A DNA stretch of 31,246 nucleotides from a virus, in the IMG/VR virus record IMGVR_UViG_3300025872_000200, positions 1-31,246 of that record. The stretch is one strand, 5' to 3'. This document shows, one piece after another, positions 1 to 31,246 of this stretch. The notes below the pieces were generated by a model. It was not told the origin of the DNA, made no database searches, and saw only the letters and a list, made by a program, of their open reading frames with translations. How positions within the stretch are numbered: position 1 is the first letter of the stretch; every line of letters starts with the position of its first letter. The position numbers and the translations under genes were made by a program.

Positions 1-2
1 AC

Positions 3-2214: not shown

Positions 2215-2585
2215 TGAGCACTCAGCTATACACGATTGCGGAAGTTTTCATCGATGGCAAAAAGCTCATGGAAGAAGCGTCTGTCAAAGTGACGCGCGAC
2301 ACCAAGGCCCAACCCGTCAACACCGTGGCGCGCGGATTTGCTGGCATGAGCCAAGGCTCACGCGAGCTTCAAATCTCTGTCGAATCGGCCGTGCCCTCGA
2401 CGGATTTTGAAATGAACCCGGCCCAGTACATGAACACCACCAAGGCCGTCACCATCACCATTCGCGCTGCGGGAAGAAGCCTGTCGTCTCAAGGCTTCAT
2501 TACCAAAGACGACTTTAGCCACTCCGTAAACTCCGAAGCAAAACTGTCTTTTGAGTTTATGGGTGAATATGCCGATTGGACGTAA
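2214..2585 (+). CDS. Tail tube protein (Mu gpM-like)
   Basis: A 123-residue protein that follows the sheath gene and overlaps it by one base (TAATG). It begins 'YTIAEVFIDGKKLMEEASVKV' and has a beta-rich body with a 'GFAGMSQGSRELQISVESA' loop. It ends in a strand, 'KLSFEFMGEYADWT'. This is the size and secondary-structure pattern of Mu-type tail tube proteins, which stack as hexamers to form the inner tube through which DNA passes. Position between sheath and tape-measure genes supports the call strongly. Confidence 0.88.
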   Translation: MSTQLYTIAEVFIDGKKLMEEASVKVTRDTKAQPVNTVARGFAGMSQGSRELQISVESAVPSTDFEMNPAQYMNTTKAVTITIRAAGRSLSSQGFITKDDFSHSVNSEAKLSFEFMGEYADWT

Positions 2586-2592
2586 TACCTAA

Positions 2593-3237: not shown

Positions 3238-3262
3238 AAAGCGCGATTAGAGAAACTTCCAA

Positions 3263-6559: not shown

Positions 6560-6562
6560 CCG

Positions 6563-7537
6563 ATGGCCGAATTTTTCCGAGTTGCGCTTTTAGAAGCGAA
6601 GTTCCGTGACGTGTCGTTTCCGGTCACGGATTTTCGTATCCAAATCTCGCACGACATTGCGCAACACAAACGGCCCGACCAAGACGGCGCTCGGGTAGAA
6701 TCAACGGGCCGAAACCCGATGACGTTTTCGGCAAGCATCCCGTTTTACAGAGGGATTGCAACGAACGTCACGGAAAACTGGCCCGAGCTTTACCCAGCTC
6801 ATCATCGCGCGTTTCTGTCGTCGATGGCGGACCGCACCGCTGGCGTTCTGAGCTGCCCGTCGTTTGGCGACATCATCGTCAAGCCTGTAAGCTGCACATC
6901 CAACCTGCGGGCCGACGCGCGCTCAGGCGAAGACGTCTCTGCCGAATGGATCGAAGCGCCTCAAGATGACATCGCCGCTCGCGCAGCGTTTGCGATGCCG
7001 TCCCCACTCAATGCGGCACTTGAAGCGGCCTCCACACTAAACGATCCTGCCATCACGCCAGCGCTCAAGAAGGTCGACCCTGACGATCGAATCAGCATCT
7101 TTGAAGCAATGACAAAGATTGCGGCGGTGATGGACCAGTCGCGCCTGTTCATACAGCAGAACGTGGCCATGATTGACCGGCTGACCTACCGGCTCAACGT
7201 GATTCACGAGTCGACGTCCTCACTCATGGATCCGCAACTTTGGACCGTAAAAGAGCCCGTCAACCGTTTGCGAGACGCGCTCTACAGGCTCAAACTCCTT
7301 GGCGCCGGCGTCACCAAAGATGTGTCTATCTACATTGTTCCAGCGCAGACAACGGTGGCCAACCTTGCTTCCGATCTCAAAACCGAGGTGCGTTGGTTAT
7401 TGGAACTAAACCCCCGCATCACGTCCGTCTTCTTTGTCGAGAAGGGCACGTTCATCCGTTATTACAAGCGTGATGTGAACCCGGTGGCCGTGGCAATCAA
7501 TACCGGCGGCATGTCGCCGATTGTTGGCGACCTCTAG
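6563..7537 (+). CDS. Mu gpN-like baseplate/tail protein (DNA_circ_N family)
   Basis: A 324-residue protein. The N-terminal 100 residues match the so-called DNA circularisation N-terminal domain found in Mu gpN and relatives: 'FREVALLEAKFRDVSFPV'-type start, 'ESTGRNPMTFSASIPFYRG' and 'HPSFGDIIVKPVS'-like strands (here 'LSCPSFGDIIVKPVSC'). The C-terminus from about residue 265 ('YIVPAQTTVANLASDLKTE') looks like a LysM-type module that could bind peptidoglycan. Despite the family name, in contractile phages these are structural proteins near the baseplate hub. Gene order (tape measure, gpN, gpP) agrees with Mu. The start ATG follows the tape-measure stop by 3 bases. Confidence 0.82.
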   Translation: MAEFFRVALLEAKFRDVSFPVTDFRIQISHDIAQHKRPDQDGARVESTGRNPMTFSASIPFYRGIATNVTENWPELYPAHHRAFLSSMADRTAGVLSCPSFGDIIVKPVSCTSNLRADARSGEDVSAEWIEAPQDDIAARAAFAMPSPLNAALEAASTLNDPAITPALKKVDPDDRISIFEAMTKIAAVMDQSRLFIQQNVAMIDRLTYRLNVIHESTSSLMDPQLWTVKEPVNRLRDALYRLKLLGAGVTKDVSIYIVPAQTTVANLASDLKTEVRWLLELNPRITSVFFVEKGTFIRYYKRDVNPVAVAINTGGMSPIVGDL

Positions 7538-7551
7538 TGTGCAAGTAAATC

Positions 7552-8982
7552 ATGCCCGCTGATTCCGAGGAATGCACGATTCACATCGAAGACTTGAACG
7601 TCAACGTGGATCGATGGAACAATTACACGTTTTTTTCTGACTTTTTGACGCCTGCCGACAACTTTGTGTTTGAGGTTGGAGACCCCGACTTCCCGGATGA
7701 TGTTTCGCGAAGGCTCGCACCGGGAATGAAGGTGCGAATCCTGCTTGATGACCGGACGGTATGCACGGGCCACATTGACGAAGTGGCCGCTGGCGCAGAC
7801 CGAGGCAGCGGAACCTTGTTTCGCATATCGGGGCGCGATGTGCTTGGCGATGTGATTGATTCAAGCATCGACCCGTACATGAACTTTACGCCCGAGCAAT
7901 CCTTGATTGACGTGGCAACCAAGGTGCTCACACCGTTTGGTTTGACGGTGATTTCCTCCGACAACGATGCGGAAAGGTCGATTCGCTCCGCAAACAAGTT
8001 TGGGGAAAAGAAGAATTACAAGAAGGGAAAGCAGAAAGAGACTATTACTCACACCGCAAAAGCCTGGAATGCGCAAACGGGCAAAGTAGAGAACAAGACC
8101 ACCGTGTTGCAAGGCCCTAAGCAGCCGAAGCAATACGTCCAATACAAAGCGGTGATGTTTGATGCAGTAAAAAACAAGCCGTACATTGGCACAGTCGTTC
8201 TTGAAAAGCCCAAAGGTGGCTCACTCAGCAGCGCTCAACAACATCAAACAAAACCGTATCCCCACGAAGGCGCGTACGAGTTTCTTTCCCGTATCGCAAA
8301 GCGGGAGGGTTTGCACATCTGGGCAAAAGCCGACGGAACGGGCGTTGTTATTGGCAAACCGTTCTTTTCACAACAGCCGATTTACAGGTTGATTCGTCGT
8401 CGCGGCCCCGGTCGCGGCTCGGAAAACAACATCATTAGCGGCTCGGTCAAACATGCGCGCACCGAACAGCCGAGCGTAATCATTGCGGGCGGTCGCGGAG
8501 GCGGCGGGGACTTTCCGCGAGCAACCATCCGTTGCGCCATGGTCAACGAACTTGTGGGGCTAGGTCTCGACGGTGAACCGGTGCCTGGCGTCAAAGAGGT
8601 TTTGAAGCGTTTTCCAAAGGCGTATCAAATCACAGAAGCTGATTTTGAAGACGGTAGCGCTCCGAGTGCTCGCAACCCATACCCGCGAGCGAGGCCCATG
8701 TTCATCATGGACCAAGAGTCCAACAATCTAAAACAGCTCATCAACTTCACGAAACGCGAGATGGCGTCACGGCAAATGCAAGCGCTTCAATGCGTTTACG
8801 TTGTAGCCGGGCACACGCAAGACGGGCGCTCGTGGGCCGTTGATACCACGGTCGAAGTCGACGACGACGTGGCAAACCTGCATGAAACCATGTGGGTCAA
8901 AAGCATCGAGTATCACAAATCACGCAGCGGCGGCACGACCACGACGCTCACGCTCATCCGACCGAACACGCTTCGCCTCTAA
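7552..8982 (+). CDS. Baseplate hub protein (Mu gpP / late control D-like)
   Basis: A 476-residue hub protein. The N-terminus carries the gpP/gpD pattern: ligand-like beta domain with 'MKVRILLDDRTVCTGHIDEV', 'LFRISGRDVLGDVIDSS', then 'EQSLIDVATKVLTPFGLTV'. It is followed by the 'GAYEFLSRIAKREGLHIWAKADGTGVV' segment common to hub proteins at the tail tip. A lysine-rich insert at about residues 145-200 is not typical and may be a surface loop. The C-terminus ends with 'DDDVANLHETMWVKSIEYHKS', also a hub signature. The stop TAA overlaps the next ATG by one base. The product forms the trimeric hub that joins the spike to the tube. Confidence 0.85.
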   Translation: MPADSEECTIHIEDLNVNVDRWNNYTFFSDFLTPADNFVFEVGDPDFPDDVSRRLAPGMKVRILLDDRTVCTGHIDEVAAGADRGSGTLFRISGRDVLGDVIDSSIDPYMNFTPEQSLIDVATKVLTPFGLTVISSDNDAERSIRSANKFGEKKNYKKGKQKETITHTAKAWNAQTGKVENKTTVLQGPKQPKQYVQYKAVMFDAVKNKPYIGTVVLEKPKGGSLSSAQQHQTKPYPHEGAYEFLSRIAKREGLHIWAKADGTGVVIGKPFFSQQPIYRLIRRRGPGRGSENNIISGSVKHARTEQPSVIIAGGRGGGGDFPRATIRCAMVNELVGLGLDGEPVPGVKEVLKRFPKAYQITEADFEDGSAPSARNPYPRARPMFIMDQESNNLKQLINFTKREMASRQMQALQCVYVVAGHTQDGRSWAVDTTVEVDDDVANLHETMWVKSIEYHKSRSGGTTTTLTLIRPNTLRL

Positions 8983-9662
8983 TGGATTTTCTAGCTTTCA
9001 AACCGGTTTGGGATCGCGGAATTGGAATCCTAAATACGGTTCGCGACGCCGCCACCAACACCATCCTCGCCATCCTTGGCGATGAGGAGGGCGACGTCAC
9101 CGAAAGCGTTGAAGCCGAGTGGGTGCAGCACATCGGATTTGCTTCACGGCCATCGAAACCCGAGCGCGATAAGGGCGGTCCGCAGGCTGTTATTTTGCGG
9201 GCGAGCGACCGCGATTGCGTGATTGGAAGCCGTGACGTGCGCTGTCACGGGCTCTACGCCAGCCTCGATTACGGCGAAACGTGCATGTATGCGCCGGGCG
9301 AAAACGGCAATTCGCAGGGGCGCGTTTTCTTGAAAAAAGACGGCTCAATTCATCTCTACACGCGCGCCGGTAACTCAGGCTCGGGCGATGGGATGACCGT
9401 CAGCCTCGACCCGAACGCGAACAGGCTTGTGGCCATCAACGGCAAAGGTTTCGGAATCATCGCCGACGAGGATGGTGTGACCATCACGGCAGGAAACGCA
9501 GCTCTGACTCTTCGTGCAAGCGGGGACATTGCGCTTGTCGGGTCGGGCACAACGCTTCTCGACGGTTCTGGCGTCATGATTGGCAACGCCGCCGTGTTGA
9601 CGGCCGTGCGTGGCCCAACGGGCGTTGCGGCGGCGCCGTCGGTCAAAGTCAAAATCGAATGA
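8982..9662 (+). CDS. Baseplate spike protein (gpV / Mu gp45-like)
   Basis: A 226-residue protein. I start it at ATG 8982, which overlaps the hub gene stop by one base, rather than at an upstream in-frame codon at 8892 that would lie deep in the hub gene. An OB-like N-terminal half ('ESVEAEWVQHIGFASRP', 'GETCMYAPGENGNSQGRVFLKKDGSIHLYT') is followed by a C-terminal beta-helix of short regular repeats ('GFGIIADEDGVTITAGNAALTLRASGDIALVGSGTTLLDG'-type, cut here). This is the membrane-puncturing spike at the tail tip in Mu and P2. Its last codon overlaps the following proline-rich gene by 4 bases, so that protein is probably made in step with the spike. Confidence 0.86.
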   Translation: MDFLAFKPVWDRGIGILNTVRDAATNTILAILGDEEGDVTESVEAEWVQHIGFASRPSKPERDKGGPQAVILRASDRDCVIGSRDVRCHGLYASLDYGETCMYAPGENGNSQGRVFLKKDGSIHLYTRAGNSGSGDGMTVSLDPNANRLVAINGKGFGIIADEDGVTITAGNAALTLRASGDIALVGSGTTLLDGSGVMIGNAAVLTAVRGPTGVAAAPSVKVKIE

Positions 9663-9994
9663 GTTGCGGATTCCCCACGATAGGCATTCCCGGACTACCG
9701 ACTTTGCCGAGCTTGCCTAGCTTGCCTTCCTTAGCTTTCGGCATACCCATCACGCTGCCTGCATTTGACCCAACGTTGTCCTTGCCAACGTTGCCGATGC
9801 CTGGCCTTCCGTTGTTGCCGTCGCTTCCGTCACTGCCATCTCTCTCGTTCGGAATACCCATCATGTTGCCGCAGTTCGACCCGGCGCTTTCGTTGCCGTC
9901 GATTGCGATGCCTGGCCTTCCGTTGTTGCCGTCACTGCCAACGCTTCCGTCACTTCCGTCGCTCACGCTCCCCGAACCAATCTGCCCCCTGTAA
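9659..9994 (+). CDS. Pro/Leu-rich tandem-repeat protein of the spike region
   Basis: A 111-residue protein of unknown function made almost only of Pro, Leu, Ser and small residues. It contains 2.7 copies of a 37-residue unit: PGLPxLPSLPSLPSL, then xFGIPIxLPxFDPxLSLP. Copies start at about residues 11, 48 and 85. A Cys near each end (C3 and C109) frames the repeats. Its ATG overlaps the spike stop (ATGA) and its own stop overlaps the next ATG by one base, so it is held within the baseplate operon and is very likely expressed. The Mu order has no gene between gp45 and gp46. It could be an extended polyproline-like spike tip, hub plug or linker (inference). Coding on this strand is supported by operon fit; the antisense frame is a shadow. 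Confidence 0.7.
   Translation: MSCGFPTIGIPGLPTLPSLPSLPSLAFGIPITLPAFDPTLSLPTLPMPGLPLLPSLPSLPSLSFGIPIMLPQFDPALSLPSIAMPGLPLLPSLPTLPSLPSLTLPEPICPL
9796..9933 (+). repeat. 111-base tandem repeat within Pro/Leu-rich gene
   Basis: A 27-base identical block starting GATGCCTGGCCTTCCG occurs at 9796-9822 and 9907-9933, 111 bases (37 codons) apart. Diverged copies extend to about 9690 on the left and 9990 on the right. The period is a whole number of codons. Confidence 0.85.
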
Positions 9995-10209
9995 TGGCCC
10001 TCAATCCGCAAACGTTAGCCTCCGCGCTCATTTCAGCGACGGGCGTGCAAGCAACGGACACGGCAGGCCGTGAAGCCATGGCTCGCATGGCTCAGGCGAT
10101 TCACAACTACCTTTTGCAAGCGACGGTCACGGTTGACGTCACAGGCACGGCGGCAACGGGCACCGGACCCGCTCCGGTCACCGGCACAGGGACGGGTGGA
10201 CTCACGTGA
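9994..10209 (+). CDS. Small baseplate-operon protein, unknown function
   Basis: A 71-residue protein with a helical first half ('ALNPQTLASALISATG', 'EAMARMAQAIHNYLLQATV') and a Thr/Gly/Pro-rich tail ('VTGTAATGTGPAPVTGTGTGGL'). It overlaps the previous stop by one base and the next GTG by 4 bases. I recall similar short proteins with an N-terminal helix and a 'GPAPVTGTG' tail in phage baseplate regions but know no assigned role. The placement between spike and gp46-like genes suggests a minor virion protein. Confidence 0.65.
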   Translation: MALNPQTLASALISATGVQATDTAGREAMARMAQAIHNYLLQATVTVDVTGTAATGTGPAPVTGTGTGGLT

Positions 10210-10661
10210 TTGGCGTCGGCAAGTCGCCCGTTGGCAAAGCGCCGGCGGGGCTTGGTGTTCCCGATGCGGCACCATCCAACGCAGGGACTTCGCTTGTGGA
10301 CGCGAACGGTGTTCAGCAATCGACACGCCTTGTCGACCCCGTGACGGGCCAATACGTGATTGACGAGCGCGGGCGCTACGTTGGAGTTTCGGCCGTTGCA
10401 CAACGCGTGCAACTGGCCCTTACGACGACGGTAGGAAGCGCAAGCGTCTACACGCTTGGCATCGACACGCCCGGCGGCGTTATCGGCAACAACTTCGTTT
10501 CCAGGCGTAAGGCCACCATCCTTCAAGCCCTCGCGGCGATGGTGAAGGAAAAGACCATCGAGGTCGTCGACATCACCGTCAACACGTCCGTGCGACCCAT
10601 CTTCACCCAAGTTCGTTGGCGTGACCTCACAACCGAAGTTGAACAGACAACCCAAATCTAA
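10206..10661 (+). CDS. Baseplate wedge protein (gpW / gp25-like, Mu gp46 position)
   Basis: A 151-residue protein starting at GTG 10206 (GTGA overlap with the previous stop). The segment 'RVQLALTTTVGSASVYTLGID' followed by 'AMVKEKTIEVVDITVNTS' and 'VRWRDLTTEVEQ' matches the gpW/gp25 pattern: an N-terminal region, a helix with an 'aL.T..Gs' core, and C-terminal strands. A Gly/Pro/Ala-rich N-terminal extension of about 40 residues is present. It sits directly before the J-like gene as in Mu and P2. The product connects the sheath to baseplate wedges. Confidence 0.75.
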   Translation: MIGVGKSPVGKAPAGLGVPDAAPSNAGTSLVDANGVQQSTRLVDPVTGQYVIDERGRYVGVSAVAQRVQLALTTTVGSASVYTLGIDTPGGVIGNNFVSRRKATILQALAAMVKEKTIEVVDITVNTSVRPIFTQVRWRDLTTEVEQTTQI

Positions 10662-12163
10662 TGGCTGACTTTACCGTCAAATCATCGTCGGATATTCGCG
10701 ACGATTTTCTTCGGACGTACCGCGCCGGCCTTGTCGGCATTGGAGTCAAAAGCCCTAACGTCAGCCAAGGAACCGACACGTACATTTTGGCGCAAGCCAT
10801 CGGCGACCAGATTGAGGTCGCGATGGCCAATGCCCAGGTCAAAGCCGACGAGGTCATGCCCGACACGGCGACGGGCGACGAGCTTGACGGGATTGCCAAC
10901 AACATCGGCATGCCTGAACGGCGCGGAGCGGTTGGTGGCGCTGGTAGCGTTATCCTGACCTCGACCGCAAAGACGACGGTGACGGTAGGCGCGGAGCTTG
11001 TCGACCAGGCTGGCTTTCGCTTTCGCGTGTTGACTGGCGGCGTCTACGCAAGCGGCGACACGATACCCATCGAGGCCCTCGACACGGGAGCTGCGACCAA
11101 TCACCCGGCGGGCGATGTTTTCCGTTGGGTGCAGCCTCCGCCGTTCAGCGACTCAAAGGCTACCGTTGCGACTGGTGGAATTACGGGCGGATCCGAAGCT
11201 GAGGATGACGAGACGCTTCGCCAACGCATTTTCGATTGGTTACGCAACCCTCCGGCTGCCGGCAATGCGGCGCACGTTGCGCTGCTCGCCGAGCAAGCGG
11301 ACGCTATTGTTCAAAAAGCATTCGTTTACCCTGGCGTCGCCGGCTCCGGCTCGCTTGCGGTGGCGGTCGTAGGCTACCCGAGCGACACAAGCAAAGGGCG
11401 AAAGGTCACCGACGCCGTTGTTGCCAACTCAGTCAAACCTTACATCGACGGGCTCTACCCCGAGGGCGTGTCCACGATTGTCACGTCGGTTGACGAGGTG
11501 CCTTTCGACGTGTCGATGGCCATCGCCATCCCTTCATCACCGAAGGCTAGGCCGCCGGGGCCTGGTGGCGGGTGGACGGATGGCGCGACGTGGCCGAAGA
11601 ACATCAACGGAGCGTCGGATTTCAAATCGTCCGTGTTGAACGTTACGACCAACGCGAGCGTTACCTATTACACCGTGCAAGCGCCAAGCATGCCCATCGC
11701 TGGCGTCACGCAGATTGCTTGGTTATCGCCGTACACTTGGCAGGTGTACACGGCCACCGTGATGACGGCGGAGGTTGTTGGTTACCTCCCAAACATCAGC
11801 ATCACCCTCGACAAGCCGCTTCCTGGCATCACCGTTGGTTGTTTGATTTCGCCGAACGCCACAAACATCGAAACCTATTTCGACGCCATCATTCAAGCCT
11901 TCGCGGCGCTTGGCCCTGGTGAAAAGTTGGCGTCGGATTCACCCCTTTACGGTCGCGGGTTCCGGCATCCACCGCCTGCGCAGTCGTGGCCGTACCGCGT
12001 GGATGCGGCGATGCTTCGCGCCGTCGTTGTGAGTAGCGACGAGGTGCAAGACGCGGCCTTTCTTTTTCGCACGCAAGCCACGGCGCCCGATGTGCCGGCG
12101 AGCCTTAGTGCAGCGCCAAAGATATACATTCCGCGCCACATCGCGCTTTATGAGGCCGTCTGA
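10661..12163 (+). CDS. Baseplate J-like protein (Mu gp47-like)
   Basis: A 500-residue wedge protein. The N-terminus has the J pattern 'DIRDDFLRTYRAGLVGIG' and 'GSDTYILAQAIGDQIEVA'-like helices (here 'QGTDTYILAQAIGDQIEVA'), then 'TGDELDGIANNIGMPERRGA', 'AGSVILTSTAKTTVTVGAEL' and 'GGSEAEDDETLRQRIFDWL', all standard marks of the baseplate J family. The region 'GNAAHVALLAEQADAIVQKAFVYPGVAGSGSL' (shortened) also fits. An insert at about residues 290-400 contains 'PPGPGGGWTDGATWP', longer than in Mu. It overlaps both neighbours by one base. Confidence 0.9.
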   Translation: MADFTVKSSSDIRDDFLRTYRAGLVGIGVKSPNVSQGTDTYILAQAIGDQIEVAMANAQVKADEVMPDTATGDELDGIANNIGMPERRGAVGGAGSVILTSTAKTTVTVGAELVDQAGFRFRVLTGGVYASGDTIPIEALDTGAATNHPAGDVFRWVQPPPFSDSKATVATGGITGGSEAEDDETLRQRIFDWLRNPPAAGNAAHVALLAEQADAIVQKAFVYPGVAGSGSLAVAVVGYPSDTSKGRKVTDAVVANSVKPYIDGLYPEGVSTIVTSVDEVPFDVSMAIAIPSSPKARPPGPGGGWTDGATWPKNINGASDFKSSVLNVTTNASVTYYTVQAPSMPIAGVTQIAWLSPYTWQVYTATVMTAEVVGYLPNISITLDKPLPGITVGCLISPNATNIETYFDAIIQAFAALGPGEKLASDSPLYGRGFRHPPPAQSWPYRVDAAMLRAVVVSSDEVQDAAFLFRTQATAPDVPASLSAAPKIYIPRHIALYEAV

Positions 12164-12636
12164 TGCCGTTGCCTGATGCATCCAACATAACCAACTACGG
12201 GGCACCCAAGCGCAATTACGAGATTGCCCCCGTCGACCCCGAAACGGACCTCGACGCCAACGAGTTCAACCGTTTGGCGTGCGATGTGGCCATGGGTTCG
12301 CGCATGGTCGACCGCGTTGAGGTGGTGTTCACGGCGGGCGCTACGCCGTTGGTCACGAGCTTTGAAGCGGTTTGGAAAAAGACAACGACGACGGTGCCGA
12401 GCATCGTAAAGACGGCCACGGGCACGTTTACCATCACCGTGCCGCTATCGGTGCAAGACGAGCTGCAAGGCTCGCACACGGTCAACTTGAAGTCAGCGCT
12501 AGGCACCGCCACGGGTTCGCAAGCTAGGCACGTCCAGGCGGCGGCGACGGGAAACGTGATTGCCGTCTATGTGTTTGACATGGCGGGGGCCGCCGTCGAC
12601 GCAACGGGCGAGACCTTCGTGGTGCGGGCGCGCTAA
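12163..12636 (+). CDS. Unknown baseplate-operon protein between J-like and gp48-like genes
   Basis: A 157-residue protein with no family I can name. Residues 1-50 are polar with 'DPETDLDANEFNRLACDVAMGSR'. Residues 50-157 form alternating strands ('RVEVVFTAGATPLVTSFEA', 'GTFTITVPLSVQDEL', 'NVIAVYVFDMAGAAVD', 'ETFVVRA'), suggesting a beta-sandwich. The final strand pattern is similar in style to virion beta domains. It overlaps J-like and gp48-like genes by one base on each side, so it is likely a virion or assembly protein. It has no equivalent at this place in Mu. Confidence 0.65.
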   Translation: MPLPDASNITNYGAPKRNYEIAPVDPETDLDANEFNRLACDVAMGSRMVDRVEVVFTAGATPLVTSFEAVWKKTTTTVPSIVKTATGTFTITVPLSVQDELQGSHTVNLKSALGTATGSQARHVQAAATGNVIAVYVFDMAGAAVDATGETFVVRAR

Positions 12637-22911: not shown

Positions 22912-23417
22912 AATGGCATATCGTCAATATGCTCTTCAAACGTTGCTTGAGGAGCAAACGCGTTAGGCTTCACCATCGCGGGAGGCACCATTGGCGCGAC
23001 GGGTTTGGGCGGAGACATCGGCCTTGGCGGGCTCGTAATTACTTTCTCGCCAAGCTCAAAGCGCACGATAAACCGCGCAGCAACGGCGGCTTTGCGGCGC
23101 GTAAATGGCGCTTGCGGCTTGCCATTCCATTGCGCGTTTTCGCGCAACTCTTTTTCGTACATGTTCATCAGAGCTTGACGGTAGCCGCGCAAAAACTTCG
23201 CATCCGTCTCGGAAAACTTTTTGCCTTTGAAGTTTGTTTTGCCAATTTCAAACTTCACATCAAAATCATCCGAGGTTTCCGCGCTCGCGATTCCGCAAGC
23301 ATCCGAGCGAAACTCAAACTCCAGCGCCGCGCGGTGAACAACTTTTTCGACACGCAGAATGGCCTGAGCAATCTCTTTCTGCGTTTGCAAAAGGGCAGTC
23401 GCCAAATCTTCGTTCAT
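22908..23417 (-). CDS. Protein with SSB-like acidic C-terminal tail in recombination operon
   Basis: A 169-residue protein. ATG 23417 overlaps the nuclease stop (ATGA) and is preferred to a start 48 bases upstream. Residues 1-35 are helical, and residues 40-120 are mixed with 'DDFDVKFEIGKTNFKGKKF' and 'ARFIVRFELGEKV'. A Pro-rich linker (about 125-157) leads to the end 'FEEHIDDMPF'. An acidic linker ending in Asp-Asp-hydrophobic-Pro-Phe is the hallmark of single-stranded-DNA-binding proteins, where it recruits repair and replication enzymes. Neighbours are a RecB/Cas4-like nuclease and a RecT-like protein. I do not recognise an OB fold here, so this could be an unusual SSB or another protein that mimics its tail. 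Confidence 0.65.
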   Translation of the reverse strand: MNEDLATALLQTQKEIAQAILRVEKVVHRAALEFEFRSDACGIASAETSDDFDVKFEIGKTNFKGKKFSETDAKFLRGYRQALMNMYEKELRENAQWNGKPQAPFTRRKAAVAARFIVRFELGEKVITSPPRPMSPPKPVAPMVPPAMVKPNAFAPQATFEEHIDDMPF

Positions 23418-24478
23418 CGCCTTTTCATCTCTCTCACTTGCGTCGACGTGGTGAATTTTTTGCACGATTCAATCTCTTCGTCGGTTGCACCTTTGGCCTT
23501 TGCAAGCGCGACAAGTTTGGCGGTTTCCACGGTCCCCCTTGTTTGCGGCTCTCCCTCGCGCAGCTCCAACGTGTCACTGATTGGCAACGGCGTAATTTTG
23601 GCGAGCTTGCGAAGGTTTTCGTCGATTGTGTCGGCGAGCTTGGAAATCCGCTTGTTGAGCACATACGCCTTTCCGCCTTCGTCGGGCGTCATGGCGGCGA
23701 TACGGCTGGCCACGTTTTCGAGGTCCGTGGTCGCCGAACGAACGAGCGCGACGTTGGCCGGGCAAGCGTGAGTTGCGGGGCAGTATTGGCACCAGTCGCC
23801 GAGTGTCACATCGGGCATGCGGCCTTGCTCGACAAGTGCGTGAGCCTTGCGGACACGTTCGTGTGTGGCCCGCAATTCGGCAACGTAAACGTCGATGTCA
23901 AACGCGTCGAACGTGTGAGCGTCCACCGATTCCCGGCCGCTCTCGTCGATGTACACAATCTCGGCGCGCACGCTTTGGGCTTCGGCCTGATACATGGCGA
24001 CGGTGGCCGCAAAGAGCATCTGCGCGTTCTTTTTGCATTCGGTCACGCGCAAAAAGCCCGTCTTGAAATCCTTCACCACGGGGATATTGCGAAACGTGTC
24101 GAACGCAACCATGTCGACCGTTCCAGGTACCTCGTTCTCAAAGGTCACGTAGGCGCGGCCGATGTTTTGCCCAAGCTCGCGCACGGTCGAATCGGTGAGG
24201 TTGAGCGCGTACGCCACTTCCGTGCGCATGTTTCCGAGGCCCGCTGTAAGCGCGGCAATGTTGATGGCCTCGCAGCGCTTTTTTAGCGCTTCGGGCAACT
24301 TGGCAAGAGCCTCGTCTTGCGGCACGCCGGCAATCCGGTCATGCAGGTAGCTATGAATGTGCGTTCCCGTCTCGGCCGCTTCGTGGGTTGTGTACGCGTG
24401 GGGCAGCACCGCGCTGGCCGCGCATCGCATCGTACGCCCAAGACTAGACGCGCTCCCGAGCCGAATCTCAGTAGGCAT
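23414..24478 (-). CDS. PD-(D/E)xK nuclease, Cas4/RecB-like, with Fe-S cysteines
   Basis: A 354-residue protein. ATG 24478 has GGGG upstream and overlaps the RecT-like gene by 11 bases; a GTG at 24508 would add 10 residues. The nuclease core is visible: 'ETGTHIHSYLHDRIAG' (His40/42), 'RTEVAY' (Glu87), 'EVPGTVDMVAFD' (Asp122), 'VVKDFKTG' (Asp137-x-Lys139) and Gln153. Four cysteines, C19, C230, C233 and C239, have the C...C-x2-C-x5-C layout of Cas4 and AddB [4Fe-4S] nucleases. It probably resects double-stranded DNA ends to expose single strands for the RecT-like annealing protein. There is no Cas1/Cas2 or CRISPR array in the window, so it is read as a phage recombination nuclease. Confidence 0.82.
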   Translation of the reverse strand: MPTEIRLGSASSLGRTMRCAASAVLPHAYTTHEAAETGTHIHSYLHDRIAGVPQDEALAKLPEALKKRCEAINIAALTAGLGNMRTEVAYALNLTDSTVRELGQNIGRAYVTFENEVPGTVDMVAFDTFRNIPVVKDFKTGFLRVTECKKNAQMLFAATVAMYQAEAQSVRAEIVYIDESGRESVDAHTFDAFDIDVYVAELRATHERVRKAHALVEQGRMPDVTLGDWCQYCPATHACPANVALVRSATTDLENVASRIAAMTPDEGGKAYVLNKRISKLADTIDENLRKLAKITPLPISDTLELREGEPQTRGTVETAKLVALAKAKGATDEEIESCKKFTTSTQVREMKRR

Positions 24479-25352
24479 CCGGGTTATCCCCGCGATCGAT
24501 GTCGTCACTTGCAGCCGTCACCACTTCGGCGACAACCAGCGCGGGCTCTTGCACGGCGGGGGCTTCCTCGCGCGGTGCGGCCTTGGTCTTCTTGGGCGCA
24601 AATTTCAAGGTGTAGGCGGCGCGGAGTTTTTCGGCTTGGTCTTTGGTGACGTGGCCTGCGTCAACGGCCAACTTGATGTCGGCGACAATCTTGTTTTTGT
24701 CGCCAGGGGCAGCGTCGGCAATCGTGGCCAGAAGCGTATCGGCCAAGCCGTCGATGACCGTCGTAAGCTGTGCGGGCGGGGCATGGGTAGCGGACGCAGA
24801 GGGCTGTGCGGACGCGTCGCGGTCGACTTCCTCGGTCGCCAAAATGCCGAAGAGCATGTCAGAGAACACAAGGCGCGCAAGCTCGCTCTTTGCGCGAGCA
24901 TTGAGCATTTGGCGAGGGAATTTGGACCACGTGCCGCGCCCCAACAGTCCAGCACGCTTCGCATCTTCTAGCGTCCACGTCACGCGCTGCTCTGCTTCGC
25001 CTCGACGCTTGGCAACCCATGTCACTTTCTCGTCAGAGGCGAACTCGCACTCGAAGCGCTCAAAATCTGGCGCTCGTCGACAGATGGCGACCATCGCGTC
25101 GGACGCGATGACGGCTTTGCCCTCGATGACATGGATGGCGCGAATGGAAGCCATCGAACCCAAGCCGAGACCATGGCCCGTAAGAATCCGCGTCAGCGCG
25201 TCGTGCGGGCTCTGCACGCCGTTGAGGCGCGTTTCGGCGACATAGCCCGCGAGCGTGCACGCCTCCGTAAAATCGCCAGGTTCGAGGTCGCCGTATTGGC
25301 GCGCTGCCGAGGCGGTTGCGGTTGCGGTTGCGTTTGACTTTACGATGTTCAT
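24468..25352 (-). CDS. RecT-like single-strand annealing recombinase
   Basis: A 294-residue protein starting at ATG 25352, which overlaps the upstream stop (ATGA). It shows the phage RecT-family pattern: 'HDALTRILTGHGLGLGSMAS' and 'IRAIHVIEGKAVIASDAMVA', then 'WTLEDAKRAGLLGRGTWSKF', 'PRQMLNARAKSELARLVFSD' and 'MLFGILATEEV'. The C-terminal third (about 200-294) is Ala/Pro/Glu-rich and probably flexible. It would anneal complementary single strands during phage recombination, together with the neighbouring nuclease. The call is by recall of the family pattern; the specific RecT subfamily was not checked. Confidence 0.78.
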   Translation of the reverse strand: MNIVKSNATATATASAARQYGDLEPGDFTEACTLAGYVAETRLNGVQSPHDALTRILTGHGLGLGSMASIRAIHVIEGKAVIASDAMVAICRRAPDFERFECEFASDEKVTWVAKRRGEAEQRVTWTLEDAKRAGLLGRGTWSKFPRQMLNARAKSELARLVFSDMLFGILATEEVDRDASAQPSASATHAPPAQLTTVIDGLADTLLATIADAAPGDKNKIVADIKLAVDAGHVTKDQAEKLRAAYTLKFAPKKTKAAPREEAPAVQEPALVVAEVVTAASDDIDRGDNPDAY

Positions 25353-25582
25353 GACTTGAAAAGTTCCAATCTCCAATTTTCGTAGGCGAGTTGAGCTTTG
25401 ATTTCGGAAGCGTCGGCCATGGCTTCGATCGCGTGCGCAAGCCGGTTCACCGTCAAAAGCGCATCGGTGTCCGACCACGGCAGCGCGCACAGGTTGGTGC
25501 GCACGGTATGGAGCGCGTCAGCGGTCTCCCGAAGCACCCTGGCCTCCGTGGCCGTGCGGCGGGCATCATCAATCTTGTTCAT
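25349..25582 (-). CDS. Small helical protein upstream of RecT-like gene
   Basis: A 77-residue, fully helical protein ('MNKIDDARRTATEARVLRET', 'LLTVNRLAHAIEAMADASEI'). It overlaps both neighbours by 4 bases with ATGA junctions, so it belongs to the minus-strand early operon. It contains one Cys and two Trp residues and no recognisable domain. Function unknown. Confidence 0.62.
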   Translation of the reverse strand: MNKIDDARRTATEARVLRETADALHTVRTNLCALPWSDTDALLTVNRLAHAIEAMADASEIKAQLAYENWRLELFKS

Positions 25583-26128: not shown

Positions 26129-26341
26129 ATGACAGATGACGATCGTGCGCCTGACAGTTCGTCTCATGCGACGAGTTGCACACGTTTGCGAGCAAAGTCA
26201 CCGTGCCACGATGAGGTGCATCATATTCTTCGTGATGCCTGCACTCGCTTGCGCGCGCTGGCCAAAGCACAAAACTCTGTTGTGGCCGCCGTGGTTGCTC
26301 ACGCCATCGCGCGCATCGTCCAGGCTATGGATGAACCTTAA
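26129..26341 (+). CDS. Small unknown protein between operator region and XRE regulator
   Basis: A 70-residue protein from ATG 26129 with GAGGGGAGAG about 9 bases upstream. It begins 'MTDDDRAPDSSSHATSCTRL' and ends with a helical 'AKAQNSVVAAVVAHAIARIV'. It stands alone on the plus strand, convergent with the XRE gene (22-base gap) and divergent from the early operon. It could be a small regulatory protein such as an antirepressor or Cro-position gene, but no motif shows this. A minus-strand frame over the same bases (25998-26270) looks less protein-like. Confidence 0.45.
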   Translation: MTDDDRAPDSSSHATSCTRLRAKSPCHDEVHHILRDACTRLRALAKAQNSVVAAVVAHAIARIVQAMDEP

Positions 26342-26362
26342 CGGAACCCCCCAAGTTGCCCC

Positions 26363-26896
26363 CTAAGTTCCTGGCTTCTTGTTCTTTTGCTTAGGTTCGG
26401 CGTCAAGATCGTGAATAGCTTCCGTCAGCGCCTCATTGATTTTGGCGACGAGACGGCGTAGCTCGTGCGATTGGACGCGCGGGTTTTGTTTGAGGATCCA
26501 GTCGGCCTCAAGGAGCTTCCACGCCTGGGCCGCAGTTAAGTCTTGCGGACGTTCCACGTCTGGAGTCCACGCGCTGACCCACTCGGAATCAAAACCTTCC
26601 GACAGCGCGATCGCCCTGGCCGCCGCGACCGCTCCGGTAACAGCGTCCGCGTTGAGCCGCCATACCTCGACAGGTTCCGGTCCCAACAGTGTTTCCGGGT
26701 CCACTCCTGCAAATTTCGCAAGACGAAGCGCAATCGTGCGCGAAGTGCCGGTCTTGCCGGTTTTTATTGAGCTTATGGTCGACTGGTCAACCCCCACGGC
26801 AGCCGCGATCTGTACCTGCGTATGACGCGTTAGCAGGTCTGTAACTAGACGCGTCACACGCTCGTTCTGCTCTTTGGTTAGATTGTAGGTCGCCAT
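26363..26896 (-). CDS. XRE-family helix-turn-helix regulator (candidate phage repressor)
   Basis: A 177-residue protein started at ATG 26896 (an upstream in-frame start at 26962 would cross the operator-like repeat). Residues about 8-70 form a Cro/CI-type helix-turn-helix: 'LVTDLLTRHTQVQIAAAVGV' then 'DQSTISSIKTGKTGTSRTIA', with 'GVDQSTISSIKTGKT' as the recognition helix. The C-terminal 100 residues are helical, with no LexA-type autocleavage motif (no Ala-Gly or Ser/Lys pair seen), so it is not a lambda-CI-like cleavable repressor. It is encoded alone on the minus strand, next to palindromic repeats that may be its own operators. Candidate lysogeny regulator. Confidence 0.75.
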   Translation of the reverse strand: MATYNLTKEQNERVTRLVTDLLTRHTQVQIAAAVGVDQSTISSIKTGKTGTSRTIALRLAKFAGVDPETLLGPEPVEVWRLNADAVTGAVAAARAIALSEGFDSEWVSAWTPDVERPQDLTAAQAWKLLEADWILKQNPRVQSHELRRLVAKINEALTEAIHDLDAEPKQKNKKPGT

Positions 26897-26908
26897 AATC
26901 AAACAATT

Positions 26909-26925
26909 CCAAGTGTTTGCAAACA
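26909..26925. promoter_or_regulatory. Palindromic operator candidate upstream of XRE gene
   Basis: TGTTTGCAAACA (26914-26925) is a perfect 12-base palindrome 18 bases before the XRE start codon. It is preceded by CCAAG, giving the shared string CCAAGTGTT(T)GC that recurs at 27059-27069. Probable autoregulatory site. Confidence 0.58.
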
Positions 26926-26951
26926 ATCGCACCACAGCATGCGAGGTACTC

Positions 26952-26979
26952 TTGATTTGCATTCTAGGAGACGTATGGT
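26952..26979 (+). promoter_or_regulatory. Possible rightward promoter in the regulator-integrase intergenic region
   Basis: TTGATT (26952-26957) and TATGGT (26974-26979) are 16 bases apart on the plus strand and face the integrase operon that begins at 27111. The -10 match is moderate. The 214-base region 26897-27110 otherwise holds only the repeats listed and no convincing gene; I did not find an equally good promoter for the XRE gene. Confidence 0.3.
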
Positions 26980-27058
26980 GGCGCCCGTATGGTCAACCAA
27001 ACACACTCTCATATGTGTCTTACGCTGCATGGCGCCAACCCCCTGCACAATGACTATA

Positions 27059-27079
27059 CCAAGTGTTGCGCATACGCAA
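27059..27079. promoter_or_regulatory. Second operator-like repeat near the integrase operon
   Basis: CCAAGTGTTGC at 27059-27069 repeats the 26909-26920 motif with one base missing. It contains the inverted repeat TTGCG-CATA-CGCAA (27066-27079). It lies about 32 bases before ATG 27111, so a regulator bound at both copies could control the XRE gene and the integrase operon together. Confidence 0.5.
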
Positions 27080-27110
27080 ACAGCCCCCCAAAAATCCCGT
27101 CTCTGCAAGC

Positions 27111-27251
27111 ATGAGAGAACTTGGATGGTTCGGTTTTGCCGCCAAAATTGCAATTTTTCTTGTGGAGCGCGCCGAGCGGTGGGCGTGGAGGCGCCGAAAG
27201 GTTCGCAAGCGTCGAGAAGAACTGAGGAATCTTGAACGGAGGATGCGGTGA
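27111..27251 (+). CDS. Small membrane-type basic protein
   Basis: A 46-residue protein, started at ATG 27111 (the frame is open to 27063). A short hydrophobic helix, 'GWFGFAAKIAIFLVERAERW', is followed by a strongly basic tail 'RRRKVRKRREELRNLERRMR'. It overlaps the next GTG by 4 bases, so it appears to be the first gene of the integrase operon. A membrane-anchored or nucleic-acid-binding peptide is possible. There is no recognised family. Confidence 0.45.
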   Translation: MRELGWFGFAAKIAIFLVERAERWAWRRRKVRKRREELRNLERRMR

Positions 27252-27637
27252 AGTTTGCTTGTTGCGAGTGTGGGTCGCCTATCGTTGACCATGTTATGGG
27301 GCGGGTTGTTTGGTTGGCTGGCGGATTTTACGCCGGTAAACGCTTGGCTAAATGCGTCATGCTCGTTCATGTTGGCCCATGCTGCTCCGAGCTGGCGGAG
27401 CGCGTGGTAGCTGGGAAATACGGCGAATGTCGTGAACTTGGAAGCCTTCCGCTCGTGTCGTTTGACGGCTCGGGCGACCGTGTTGCGACGGTGAGGCAAT
27501 GGAATCACTTTACGCAGGCGGACGTGCTCCGCCTCCGCGAGATTGATTTCGCGAGGCATAAATATGAGTCGACGCAGCGGCGCGAGCGCTCGCCGTGGGT
27601 CAGACTCATACGAGGACTGAAGGAGCGGTTCGCATGA
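27248..27637 (+). CDS. Cys-rich small protein, possible zinc-binding
   Basis: A 129-residue protein starting at GTG 27248 (GTGA overlap; AGGATG upstream). The N-terminus 'MKFACCECGSPIVDHVMGRV' has a CCxCG knuckle. A second Cys pair, 'HVGPCCSELAE', is near residue 45, which together could hold one zinc ion. The remainder is mixed, and the C-terminus is basic ('RHKYESTQRRERSPWVRLIR'). It overlaps the following gene by 4 bases. Function unknown; nucleic-acid binding is a guess from charge and Cys layout. Confidence 0.55.
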   Translation: MKFACCECGSPIVDHVMGRVVWLAGGFYAGKRLAKCVMLVHVGPCCSELAERVVAGKYGECRELGSLPLVSFDGSGDRVATVRQWNHFTQADVLRLREIDFARHKYESTQRRERSPWVRLIRGLKERFA

Positions 27638-27819
27638 CACGCAATCAGTTACGGGCACGCCTGCACGAGCTACTGGAAGAGTCGATGGACATCCTTGAGA
27701 AGCTCCATCCCGTGCCGACGGACCTCGAAGTTCGTCGCGCGGAAAACATCCTGTCAAACCCATCGCGTGACTTAGCCGCGCGTATGGCGGCGACGATTCG
27801 GAAAGCGCAACAGAAGTAG
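27634..27819 (+). CDS. Small helical protein before the integrase
   Basis: A 61-residue protein. The frame is open from 27595, but ATG 27634 has AGGAGCGG upstream and an ATGA overlap with the previous stop. It is helical ('RNQLRARLHELLEESMDILE') with a charged C-terminus ('RDLAARMAATIRKAQQK'). The size and location would allow a small DNA-binding or excisionase-type role, but no helix-turn-helix or winged-helix pattern is evident. Confidence 0.52.
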   Translation: MTRNQLRARLHELLEESMDILEKLHPVPTDLEVRRAENILSNPSRDLAARMAATIRKAQQK

Positions 27820-27829
27820 GGGGACTGCC

Positions 27830-29659
27830 ATGCCGCGCATGAAAAAGTACGCATACATCGACAAGCTCGAAAACGGCAAATGGCGCGTCCGCGTGCCGGT
27901 GCGCGATGCCGACGGCAAACAGATTCTTCGTCAGCCGGAGGGCACAAAGCCGTTTGATTCGCTTGCCGAAGCGAAAGCGTTTGCCAGCGAGGCCGGTCGG
28001 CTTATGCGCCACCAAAAGCGCGCCGAGGCCGGTGAGGGGTACTCCGTTCGCGAGATTGCGGCGTCGCTGGTGCACGAACGGCTCATCAAACGACCGAAGG
28101 CGGGAGCGCGCATTCAGTCTCTTTTTCTTGCGCACATCAAAAACGACCCGATTGGCGACATCGACGTCAACGCCCTCAAAACATCGGACGTCAAAGCGTT
28201 TCGTGACAGGCTGATGGAGCGCAAAGCGACGCAAGTGAAGCGTGTGCGAAATGCGGAAACCAAGGCGTACGAATTGAAGCACGTGGAGTGCGATCGCACC
28301 ATTGCCACGCAAACGCGCCGAAATGTGCTCACACTTTTGCGGGTCGTCTTCAAGTACGCCAAATCCGAGGGCAAGTGCTCGCAAGAAAATCCTTTCAAGG
28401 ACCTCATCGCCGAAGACGAGGGAACGACGGAAGTGAAGCGCTCGACCGCTCTGAAGGAGAACGAGCTTCACAAGCTCATTGAGGCGATTGATGGCCCAGA
28501 AAAGTGGATGATTGCCTTCTGTGCATACCAAGGCCTGCGCGCGGGCGAGTTGGTCTCCCTCCATTGGCGAGACGTGCACATGGATGCGCCGCAGCCGTAC
28601 ATGGTCGTGCGTTACGGCGGAACACCCATCGTCATCAAGGGTGAGTCCGTTTGGCCGCCAACCAAGGGCGGCAAGCCTCGCGAGATCCCATTGCTGCCGT
28701 TGGCCATCGAGGCGCTCAAAAATTGGAAGCGTGAGTCGGAAGGGTGGTGGCAAGGCGATGGTCAATGGGCCGCGCAAGGGCTCGTGTTTCCGTCGCGCCG
28801 AGGTGGCCGGCGCAACGCTTTGCACCTGTTTCGGCAGGAGGCCTGGAACGCCATCAAGAAGCGGTCGGGCCTTAGCCCCAAGCTCAGGTTCCACGACCTC
28901 CGGCACACGTGCGCGACGAGTTTGCTCAACGGCTACTGGGGTGAGAAGTGGAGCCTTCAAGGCGTGCAACACTTTTTGGGCCACGCCGAGCTGAAGACGA
29001 CCGAGAACTACCTCCATCAAGACAAGGGCGGCATGGCAGCATCTGCTCAAAAGACCACTGGACGCGTACGCAGCAAGAAAGTTGGTCAAGAGGGCACCAA
29101 ACCTTTCGCGACAGAGGCATTTTCGCTCACGGAAACGAGCACAGCCCTTGAAGGGGCTGACTTTGGTTCAGTGGCAAAAACTTTCCAGAAACTTACCATT
29201 TCAGAATTTGAGGCCCTAGCTAAGTTGTTGAAATCATTGGCACCCCCGGCAGGAGTTGAACCTGCGACCCGCGGCTTAGGAACCCGTTTTGTAACCCAAG
29301 GATCTCAATCACTTAGCTCCGATTCTGGGTCCAAATTCTTTCCGCGATTCTTCCACGCAATTTCTGGGCTCAAACCGATTGCCGAAACCCTGGCGGACGA
29401 GACCAAAAAACGCTCACCAGGAACCGCTGCGTTAGCAACCGGCCTGGCCTCATCAACGCTCGTCGTTTGTTCCGTAGATGAAGCGTCCGGAGACCCGCAT
29501 CCCTTGGTCGCCGAACTCGTCGCCAAGGCGAAGGAAGTGCAGGCCTCCGACGCCGTCTACGTCGTCATGGCGGGCCTCGCTCTCGCCGAGGCCATCATTG
29601 CCGCCGCTTCGCTCGTCACTCTCGGGGCCGGCACCGAGAGTCAGGCGGTGGGCACATGA
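27830..29659 (+). CDS. int: Tyrosine integrase with long C-terminal extension containing the att core
   Basis: A 609-residue site-specific recombinase with GGGGGA upstream. Residues 1-60 are an arm-binding-type N-terminus ('KLENGKWRVRVPVRDADGKQ'), and 70-205 form the core-binding SAM-like domain. The catalytic domain is complete: Arg237 ('AYQGLRAGELVSLHW'), a 'PTKGGKPREIPL' beta-hairpin Lys, His355-x-x-Arg358 ('FHDLRHTCAT'), His385 ('LGHAELKTTENYLH') and nucleophile Tyr394. The fold normally ends near residue 420. Here 190 more residues follow. They read through the tRNA-derived core (codons 470-485, 'LAPPAGVEPATRGLG') and end in an Ala-rich hydrophobic stretch. The stop overlaps the next ATG (ATGA). 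It would catalyse insertion into a tRNA-Arg gene. Confidence 0.9.
   Translation: MPRMKKYAYIDKLENGKWRVRVPVRDADGKQILRQPEGTKPFDSLAEAKAFASEAGRLMRHQKRAEAGEGYSVREIAASLVHERLIKRPKAGARIQSLFLAHIKNDPIGDIDVNALKTSDVKAFRDRLMERKATQVKRVRNAETKAYELKHVECDRTIATQTRRNVLTLLRVVFKYAKSEGKCSQENPFKDLIAEDEGTTEVKRSTALKENELHKLIEAIDGPEKWMIAFCAYQGLRAGELVSLHWRDVHMDAPQPYMVVRYGGTPIVIKGESVWPPTKGGKPREIPLLPLAIEALKNWKRESEGWWQGDGQWAAQGLVFPSRRGGRRNALHLFRQEAWNAIKKRSGLSPKLRFHDLRHTCATSLLNGYWGEKWSLQGVQHFLGHAELKTTENYLHQDKGGMAASAQKTTGRVRSKKVGQEGTKPFATEAFSLTETSTALEGADFGSVAKTFQKLTISEFEALAKLLKSLAPPAGVEPATRGLGTRFVTQGSQSLSSDSGSKFFPRFFHAISGLKPIAETLADETKKRSPGTAALATGLASSTLVVCSVDEASGDPHPLVAELVAKAKEVQASDAVYVVMAGLALAEAIIAAASLVTLGAGTESQAVGT
29238..29282 (-). 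other. Attachment site core (attP): 3' half of tRNA-Arg(CCU)
   Basis: On the minus strand, bases 29282-29238 spell the 3' part of a tRNA gene. In order they are: anticodon loop TTCCTAA (anticodon CCU), 3' anticodon stem GCCGC, variable loop GGGTC, T-stem GCAGG, loop TTCAACT, CCTGC, acceptor strand CGGGGGT, G73 and an encoded CCA. The T-stem pairs perfectly. The matching 5' acceptor strand (ACCCCCG), D-arm and 5' anticodon stem are not found to the right, so this is not a complete tRNA gene. tRNA 3' halves are the usual identity segment of integrase att sites. It lies 226 bases after the Tyr394 codon. Confidence 0.82.
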
Positions 29660-29892
29660 CCGACGAGGAACTTGAGGAGCTGATCGAGGCCATCAAGGTG
29701 CTGACCGGCGAGCGCCTGGAGCACCTAAGAGCGACCGTGACCAAGTGCTTGATCGCCGAGAGCGTGGTGGCGACACATCAATTCGTTCAAGCGTGCGTAA
29801 CGGAGGGCTTCGCCTTCGACGATGGCGCAGACGACTCGCCAACGTCGCTGGAGACGCCGAGGGCCAAGGCGCTCAAACGGGAATCGAATTGA
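29656..29892 (+). CDS. Small acidic protein downstream of integrase
   Basis: A 78-residue protein whose ATG overlaps the integrase stop (ATGA). It begins 'MTDEELEELIEAIKVLTGER' and is helical and acidic, ending 'ETPRAKALKRESN'. It has no recognisable motif. Coupling to the integrase frame indicates that the extended integrase C-terminus is translated in the form of the genome seen here. It precedes the HNH gene by 30 bases. Confidence 0.55.
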   Translation: MTDEELEELIEAIKVLTGERLEHLRATVTKCLIAESVVATHQFVQACVTEGFAFDDGADDSPTSLETPRAKALKRESN

Positions 29893-29922
29893 GCCGGTGC
29901 CTACGGGCGCGGCGGAAATTTC

Positions 29923-30135
29923 ATGAAGGGAAAGGATCCAAGAACCCTTCGCTCAAAGAAGCTCCGTCTGGCGCTTTATCTGAGTGCGGGGGGCAAGTGT
30001 TGCTTGTGCGGGGACGAGCTTGGTGAGGGGTGGCACGCTGACCACATCGTTCCCTGGTCAAGCGTCCAAAGCACAAATGTTTTCGACATGCAGGCGCTGT
30101 GTCCGCGCTGCAACTTGAAAAAGGGAAATCGGTAA
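29923..30135 (+). CDS. HNH endonuclease (small, stand-alone)
   Basis: A 70-residue protein. A zinc-bound HNH fold is clear: Cys26-x2-Cys29 ('KCCLCGDELG'), Asp40-His41 ('WHADHIVPWSS'), Asn52 ('STNVFDMQAL'), Cys60-x2-Cys63-Asn64 ('LCPRCNLKKGNR') and Lys67. All metal and catalytic positions of the family are present although the protein is short. It has a basic N-terminus ('KDPRTLRSKKLRLALYLS'). The helicase ATG starts immediately after its stop, so the two are co-translated. It could nick or cut DNA for packaging, homing or defence; the partner helicase argues for a joint nuclease-helicase function. Confidence 0.82.
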   Translation: MKGKDPRTLRSKKLRLALYLSAGGKCCLCGDELGEGWHADHIVPWSSVQSTNVFDMQALCPRCNLKKGNR

Positions 30136-31246
30136 ATGGTTTATCGTCTGTACAATCATCAAAACCAGATGGCTGAACTTGCAGAGAAGGTGTGTTCGAG
30201 TTCTGATAAAGTAAAAATAACGACTGACACGTATCCCGGCGCTGGCAAAACTGGCCAAGGAATCATTTTGGCAAGCCAATCTCTTGGGAAGCGTAAAGCT
30301 GAAAAGGTGATTTGGCTCACGCCGCAAAAGGCTCTGCAAAGTCAGGTGGCAGATGCAACATTGAATGAATCTAGCCATATGTTTAAGACCGGCGGTCGAG
30401 ATGTTCGTCTACAGACGTACAACGGGCTTTTCCCGCGCGAAGATAGAGACGGAATGGTTGCGACGTACTCGCAACTTCAGCACGCGCTCCCTTTCTTTAC
30501 CGAATTTACCAAGAAGTATTCGTGCGTGGTGATTCTTGATGAGCTTCACCAGCTCTCCTTGTCCGCAAACGGACAAGATGGTGTTTGGACAAAGAATGTC
30601 CACAACCTTGTCAGTCACCCAAACGTTACGGTCACGCTCGGTATGACCGGAACCAATGCTAGGCACGACAACAACAAAATATACCTAATGGATTACAAGC
30701 TGCTGTCAGACGGTAGCTATTTACCTCAACCTGACATCCTGTGTACCTATAAGGACGCTATTGCTCAAAACATCGTCTCGCTTTCCAGGTACAACCTTGT
30801 GGACGGTGTGTCCAAGTACATGGACACCAGCAACGATGTTTACGAGATTGCTTTGACCGAAGCAGAGGCGGAGGAGCACGCAAAAGCCTTGCTAACCGCT
30901 CTTACGAGCAAAGAGTATCTCGACCAAGTTCTCGATGTGGCGTTACGCGATTACAACGAAAGACTCAAAAAGTGGCCCCTCTACAAGGGTATGGCTTTCG
31001 GTTATTCAGCCGCGCACGCAAGACAGATTGCCGACATGCTGAATCGTCGAGGCATTCGTGTCGGTGTCGCGTTGTCGGAAGACGAAGATGTTGCATACAG
31101 AACCTTAAATTCATTCAAGGAGGACGACAACTATCAGTGGATTGTCACTGTCGGTATGGCCTCTCAAGGTTTTGATGTCCCAAGGGTCAAAGACATTATT
31201 TATTTGAACAACTGGCGCTCGAAGCCTGCGCTTATTCAAACGTTTG
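30136..31246 (+). CDS. Superfamily 2 DExH helicase, 5' part
   Basis: A helicase of at least 370 residues that continues beyond the window; ATG 30136 directly follows the HNH stop. Motifs are in order: a Q-like start 'YRLYNHQNQMAELAEK', Walker A 'YPGAGKTGQG' (Gly35-Thr39), motif Ia 'VIWLTPQKALQSQV', Walker B DELH (Asp135-His138, 'CVVILDELHQL'), motif III TGT (171-173, 'LGMTGTNAR'), motif IV 'GMAFGYSAAHARQIADML'-like and motif V 'VGMASQGFDVPRVKDIIYLN' (near 340). Motif VI begins at the edge ('ALIQTF'). It is the type used by restriction, defence and phage replication helicases. The residues do not say which. Base composition is less GC-rich than the tail genes. Confidence 0.85.
   Translation, partial: MVYRLYNHQNQMAELAEKVCSSSDKVKITTDTYPGAGKTGQGIILASQSLGKRKAEKVIWLTPQKALQSQVADATLNESSHMFKTGGRDVRLQTYNGLFPREDRDGMVATYSQLQHALPFFTEFTKKYSCVVILDELHQLSLSANGQDGVWTKNVHNLVSHPNVTVTLGMTGTNARHDNNKIYLMDYKLLSDGSYLPQPDILCTYKDAIAQNIVSLSRYNLVDGVSKYMDTSNDVYEIALTEAEAEEHAKALLTALTSKEYLDQVLDVALRDYNERLKKWPLYKGMAFGYSAAHARQIADMLNRRGIRVGVALSEDEDVAYRTLNSFKEDDNYQWIVTVGMASQGFDVPRVKDIIYLNNWRSKPALIQTF

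Follow-up and report, generated by a model that had tools for sequence, protein, structure and literature searches.

A candidate attP core in frame within a phage integrase gene

Gene layout of the integrase region

The window, i.e. the whole stretch of DNA analysed here, corresponds to an entire IMG/VR record (31,246 bases) that is classed as a linear fragment. Its left part carries a contractile-tail module with sheath, baseplate hub and wedge, and endolysin genes, followed on the minus strand by the genes of an exonuclease and RecT and by a repressor-like HTH gene. Next comes a rightward run of genes, the last of which are the integrase gene int, a 78-aa ORF (hereafter the 29656 ORF), an HNH endonuclease gene and a helicase gene (Table 1). 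In the minus-strand block at 23414-25490, the gene of a PD-(D/E)XK exonuclease (DUF2800 / Cas4-like match) adjoins that of a RecT-like annealing protein, which together represent a phage recombination pair. A simple scan for sigma-70 promoters gave no match within 26200-30200. On the minus strand, a 689-codon open frame (27020-29089) runs antisense to int and the genes preceding it; long chance ORFs do occur in this genome.

Table 1. Features of the integrase region (positions in the window)
Feature	Position	Strand	Remarks
HTH repressor-like gene	26363..26962	-	divergent from the int operon; core not inside
int, tyrosine integrase ORF, 609 codons	27830..29659	+	PF00589, E 2.4e-26; phrog_1 integrase; runs through the tRNA core
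Catalytic domain	28451..29026	+	catalytic Tyr394 at 29009-29011
Linker, catalytic domain to core	29027..29236	+	GC falls to 0.50; CAAAAACTTTCC / CAGAAACTTACC at 29175 and 29186, 11-nt spacing
Inverted repeat, left arm	29218..29240	+	19/23 matched
Candidate attP core: 3' half of tRNA-Arg(CCT), anticodon loop to CCA	29237..29281	-	opposite strand reads LAPPAGVEPATRGLG; T-arm at 29249-29265
Post-core tail, first half	29282..29470	+	open; weak codon signal
Inverted repeat, right arm	29296..29318	-	pairs with 29218-29240
Post-core tail, second half	29471..29656	+	codon use gene-like in the int frame
78-aa ORF (29656 ORF)	29656..29892	+	start ATG overlapping with the stop of int (ATGA); without match to any family
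HNH endonuclease, 70 aa	29923..30135	+	PF01844; phrog_2118
DNA helicase	30136..31246	+	PF04851; phrog_16; cut by the record end

The Pfam domain Phage_integrase covers residues 208-399 of the int product, which possesses the full set of tyrosine integrase catalytic residues; R237, H355-x-x-R358, H385 and Y394 are invariant in an alignment with three related integrases that are introduced below (L046, L126 and L127). The linker that follows the catalytic domain probably constitutes one of the attP arms. It also contains a terminator-like hairpin (29142-29159), a kind of match that is found at chance rate in this region.

A tRNA-Arg half within int

A sequence-only reading had placed the 3' half of a tRNA-Arg(CCU) gene in frame within int at 29238-29282, about 75 codons past the catalytic tyrosine, and had the frame continue for 125 codons up to an ATGA coupling with the next gene. 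On recount the half lies at 29237-29281, 76 codons after Tyr394, and 125 codons indeed precede the stop, with the ATGA at 29656-29659. In antisense orientation, the element consists of the CCA end, the acceptor strand, a five-pair T-stem with the loop TTCAACT and an anticodon loop TTCCTAA. In a collection of 84,980 species, the 26-mer spanning its T-arm is found in 27 contigs, in all cases inside tRNA-Arg genes (25 CCT and 2 TCT). The Rfam tRNA model scores the core at 21.6 bits, short of the gathering score of 29, as no more than the 3' half of a tRNA fits. The presence of this tRNA half in int is more than chance.

The same reading had named a complete tRNA-Arg directly right of 29282, or a different att core elsewhere, as observations that would speak against an attachment site. 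Within the window, ARAGORN finds no complete tRNA, the other tRNA half being missing, and a T-arm scan over the full length gave no other convincing core. Since the CCA end faces int, an integrated copy would be expected to show a complete tRNA gene at the core; as such a gene is absent, the core would represent either attP or, in a tandem array, the inner junction. With the sequence, the relatives and the Mx8 precedent (both below) taken together, the assignment of the core as attP is well supported.

The post-core tail and the repeats around the core

The frame downstream of the core falls into two halves. The first 63 codons carry little codon signal (GC3 about 0.48 for 29285-29470), and the first half of the tail is probably the other attP arm. 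The last 62 codons, which end in the ATGA overlap, are gene-like in the int frame (GC3 0.79). When the region 29282-29655 was subjected to dinucleotide shuffling, the frame stayed open in 636 of 5000 shuffles (13%) and, taken alone, the open frame of the window goes only weakly beyond chance. The case for a read-through of the core turns, as far as sequences can tell, on the comparison with relatives and not on the open frame alone.

No homologue of the tail was detectable in this comparison (Z 1.96 with L046 and about 0 with the others), and structure prediction modelled it at very low confidence without resolving a fold. The tail terminates in AVGT; an ssrA-like degron was considered as a general feature of such tails and rejected, with an AA end occurring in L127 only.

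The inverted repeat that flanks the core was equalled by 2 of 3000 shuffles with one statistic and by 15% with another score. In L126 and L127, inverted arms of 20-23 nt, which consist partly of 11-nt tandem units, likewise surround the core within the coding region, and none of 60 shuffles was as strong; the repeat of the window is comparable but weaker.

Related integrases with an in-frame core

Two profile scans of viral contigs yielded about 120 distinct tyrosine integrases, of which L045, L044, L046, L054, L130, L126 and L127 are nearest to that of the window by model score. Three of these, namely L046 (tRNA-Thr, CGT) as well as L126 and L127 (both tRNA-Arg, CCG), also possess a tRNA half in frame within int followed by a further 102-110 codons, and all three are unintegrated. 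In the window and these three relatives, i.e. in four of four unintegrated in-frame members, the int stop overlaps the start of the next gene, by ATGA in the window and L126, GTGA in L127 and ATGGCTGA in L046. In the integrated member L054, the int frame passes a complete tRNA-Arg(TCT) and continues into the flanking DNA up to the contig end; this contig carries one junction only, the other end with the orphaned tail lying outside of it. In L044 and L045, by contrast, int stops first and tRNA-Arg(CCT) cores are located 20 and about 210 bases past the stop, respectively. No core was recognised in L130.

Among the about 120 integrases, no genuine tRNA core was found inside an integrase ORF outside the window's clade; the cores detected in those other integrases mostly lie 20-170 bases past the int stop. 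Matches to the core pattern within the ORFs of L179, L180, L185, L189 and L194 were counted as chance, since they lack the CCA and fall inside the catalytic domain.

All three reading phases of the tRNA are used, one being shared by the window, L054, Mx8 (see below) and L206, a clade member from a bacterial genome bin, another by L126 and L127 and the third being that of L046, so that it is not the tRNA that sets the frame. In a small maximum-likelihood tree, the out-of-frame members L044, L045 and L130 cluster together (85/95), as do L126 and L127 (100/99); as the tree leaves the place of the window unresolved, we refrain from proposing one common origin for the in-frame arrangement.

The tails of L126 and L127 are alike in the int frame only (Z 9.1 versus at most 2.6 for every other pair of frames). 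In L127 the similarity begins at codon 34, whereas no ATG, GTG or TTG occurs before codon 47; since the similarity thus precedes any start codon, the L127 tail has to be translated from int. For at least one pair, L126 and L127, the sequences hence indicate that the tails are translated as part of the integrase. The gene that overlaps the end of the L127 tail (from 4520) begins with VTLAIGSLFSGIGGLELGLE and, as read from its sequence, looks like a C5 cytosine methyltransferase.

One could argue that attP is real but that its read-through is fortuitous. The integrase would then need nothing past about residue 420, the arms would merely happen to be free of stops, and 29471-29656 would be a small separate gene, possibly starting with the TTG at 29504, that lies in frame by chance, so that a change of the C-terminus would be inconsequential. 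The proportion of shuffles that stay open, the lack of a codon signal in 29285-29470, the stops ahead of the core in the nearest out-of-frame relatives L044 and L045, the long chance ORFs of this genome (such as the 689-codon frame opposite int) and the missing structural support for a folded tail would all be compatible with such a scenario. However, the layout recurs in L046, L126 and L127 with similar tail lengths, the similarity between the L126 and L127 tails is confined to the int frame, the L127 tail has no usable start codon, and the stop/start overlap is present in all four unintegrated in-frame members. In addition, the TTG at 29504 is preceded by just a distant GGAG. On this evidence we regard a merely fortuitous read-through as unlikely.

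Searches for lysogens and the host

Searches of the viral contigs with int, the core and the 29656 ORF returned no relative, and an integrated copy of the phage was found in none of the collections searched. The core pattern with a relaxed stem was absent from the genome collection, in which neither an attB site nor a host was found. With the integrase as query, 19 tRNA-bearing genomes gave distant matches only. There was no match at threshold in 46 genomes from one phylum and none in 398 from another, while 246 genomes of a third phylum contained one clade member, L206, in which int runs in frame into the core and the contig ends there. This end (position 1 of L206, G261:C665, in a 10.2-Mb bin) falls exactly inside a tRNA-Thr(CGT)-like core, as would be expected for an assembly break at an att site.

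It could also be imagined that two elements at one tRNA have been joined and that the part right of the core stems from another element, given that the inner junction of a tandem array would logically resemble attP and that the GC3 of the helicase gene (0.54) is lower than that of most genes left of the core. We consider such a hybrid very improbable, as the layout recurs in independent contigs such as L046, where the core is likewise flanked by phage genes to the left and right, the HNH and helicase genes belong to phage-type families, and a tandem array would in any case still swap integrase tails through the core. That the tRNA half is a captured remnant instead of an attachment core, as might be suggested by the lack of an attB and of the relaxed-stem pattern in the genome collection, is hardly credible, given its position just 3' of the catalytic domain in antisense orientation with the CCA toward int, as in many of the surveyed integrases, the tRNA-Arg(CCT) cores of the related integrases L044 and L045 and the absence of any other T-arm core in the window.

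Predicted consequences of integration

From our point of view, it is likely that the window represents a temperate phage with a contractile tail in its unintegrated attP form, the core and its probable arms being located in the 3' part of int, so that a crossover would rewrite the integrase and could place the tail and the early genes under the control of integration. The free phage can encode a 609-residue integrase, with a frame that runs through the core into the 125-residue tail and overlaps the next gene. A crossover in the core would keep int up to about residue 484, that is the catalytic domain, the linker and the core, and its end would consist of antisense host tRNA sequence. By geometry, the tail, the 29656 ORF, the HNH and the helicase genes would be moved to the opposite prophage end, away from a promoter upstream of int. 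That a crossover would rewrite the integrase C-terminus and shift the downstream genes in this way, as had been claimed from the sequence of the locus, is well supported by the sequence, by the in-frame relatives, one of them integrated, and by the Mx8 precedent.

To illustrate the effect of such a tRNA on the reading frame, the int frame of the window was joined to 25 real tRNA-Arg(CCT) genes, which are not known hosts: a stop followed 6 codons past the core in 19 cases and after 15-37 codons in the other 6, and the predicted prophage integrase would comprise about 490-521 residues as compared to 609.

With respect to function, the tail might tune the activity or the direction of the integrase, such that the enzyme acting before integration would differ from that of the lysogen, and transcripts running through int would extend into the early genes only when the genome is free or has re-circularised. 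This logic is the one described for Mx8, and a regulatory switch by integration is plausible. One could further speculate that in this integrase clade the tail serves as a dedicated sensor of the unintegrated state that would be produced from the free genome only, be translationally coupled to the early genes and alter the direction or activity of the integrase, with the att crossover switching both the form of the integrase and early-gene expression, and that the same design evolved independently in Mx8; we put this forward tentatively and, at present, would rather lean against it.

Comparison with known systems

The closest precedent is the Myxococcus phage Mx8 (D86464.1, AF396866; PMC6070905), for which our comparison rests on a review, the record annotation and the Mx8 sequence. 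As in the window, a tyrosine integrase gene contains a tRNA 3' half in frame, followed by a long tail: in D86464.1 the intP CDS (1154-2755) includes the annotated recombination site (2387-2415) with repeats on both sides; in the int frame the site reads VARSTGLEPVLL, and about 113 codons follow. Integration of Mx8 gives rise to a recombinant int with a new 3' end, whose product is changed in specificity and not inactivated (PMC6070905). The two systems differ in the tRNA used and have unrelated tail sequences, and in Mx8 the int stop is set apart from the following annotated gene (6809 to 6857), unlike in the window. The two integrases share only remote similarity (24% over 232 aa, E 0.007), which suggests that the arrangement has evolved on more than one occasion.

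The attP-in-repressor arrangement of mycobacteriophages, to which the sequence-only reading had likened the locus, does share the position of attP within a gene but is more distant than Mx8. In these phages, integration-dependent immunity relies on an attP core in the repressor gene, so that integration removes the 3' end and alters the protein; the lost end carries an ssrA-like tag, and arm-type sites are absent (PMC9934374, PMC9635641). In the window, by comparison, the gene that harbours the core is int and the repressor gene is uninterrupted; the tail has AVGT at its end. The suicidal integrases of archaeal elements (SSV1, pTN3, pT26-2) also have their att site inside the integrase gene, and integration splits the latter into inactive parts (PMC8371274); the core of the window, in contrast, follows the catalytic tyrosine, so that the catalytic part stays whole, and its Pfam match is PF00589 as opposed to the Phage_integr_3 domain of the archaeal enzymes (PMC8371274). 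Neither class thus fits the window. Ordinary tRNA-targeting integrases (such as L072, L082 and L100, and the sister integrases L044 and L045) likewise have an antisense tRNA 3' half just past the catalytic domain, but their own int stops before the core.

Beyond Mx8, we found no other phage in the literature that is described with attP inside int. As Mx8 is known, the arrangement is not new in kind; the present data suggest that it is more widespread than this single case. The additional phages, a different integrase subfamily, several tRNA targets and the coupled tails suggest that an integrase form which depends on the integration state is recurrent. For annotation, this means that a prophage integrase may carry host tRNA sequence as its C-terminus, and that a free phage and its prophage can encode distinct integrase proteins, a point of relevance to the mining of integrases as tools for genome insertion.

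Further observations on the phage

A search with the tail sheath led to another record of almost the same phage (L003; IMGVR_UViG_3300006641_003645, 1-12472, metagenome 3300006641). It matches the window in the left part, with a sheath that is identical over 508 residues, adds only ~736 bp to the left and stops short of attP. Lastly, the window contains an imperfect direct duplication of ~86 bases (9737-9822 and 9848-9933), the two copies of which are 83% identical.
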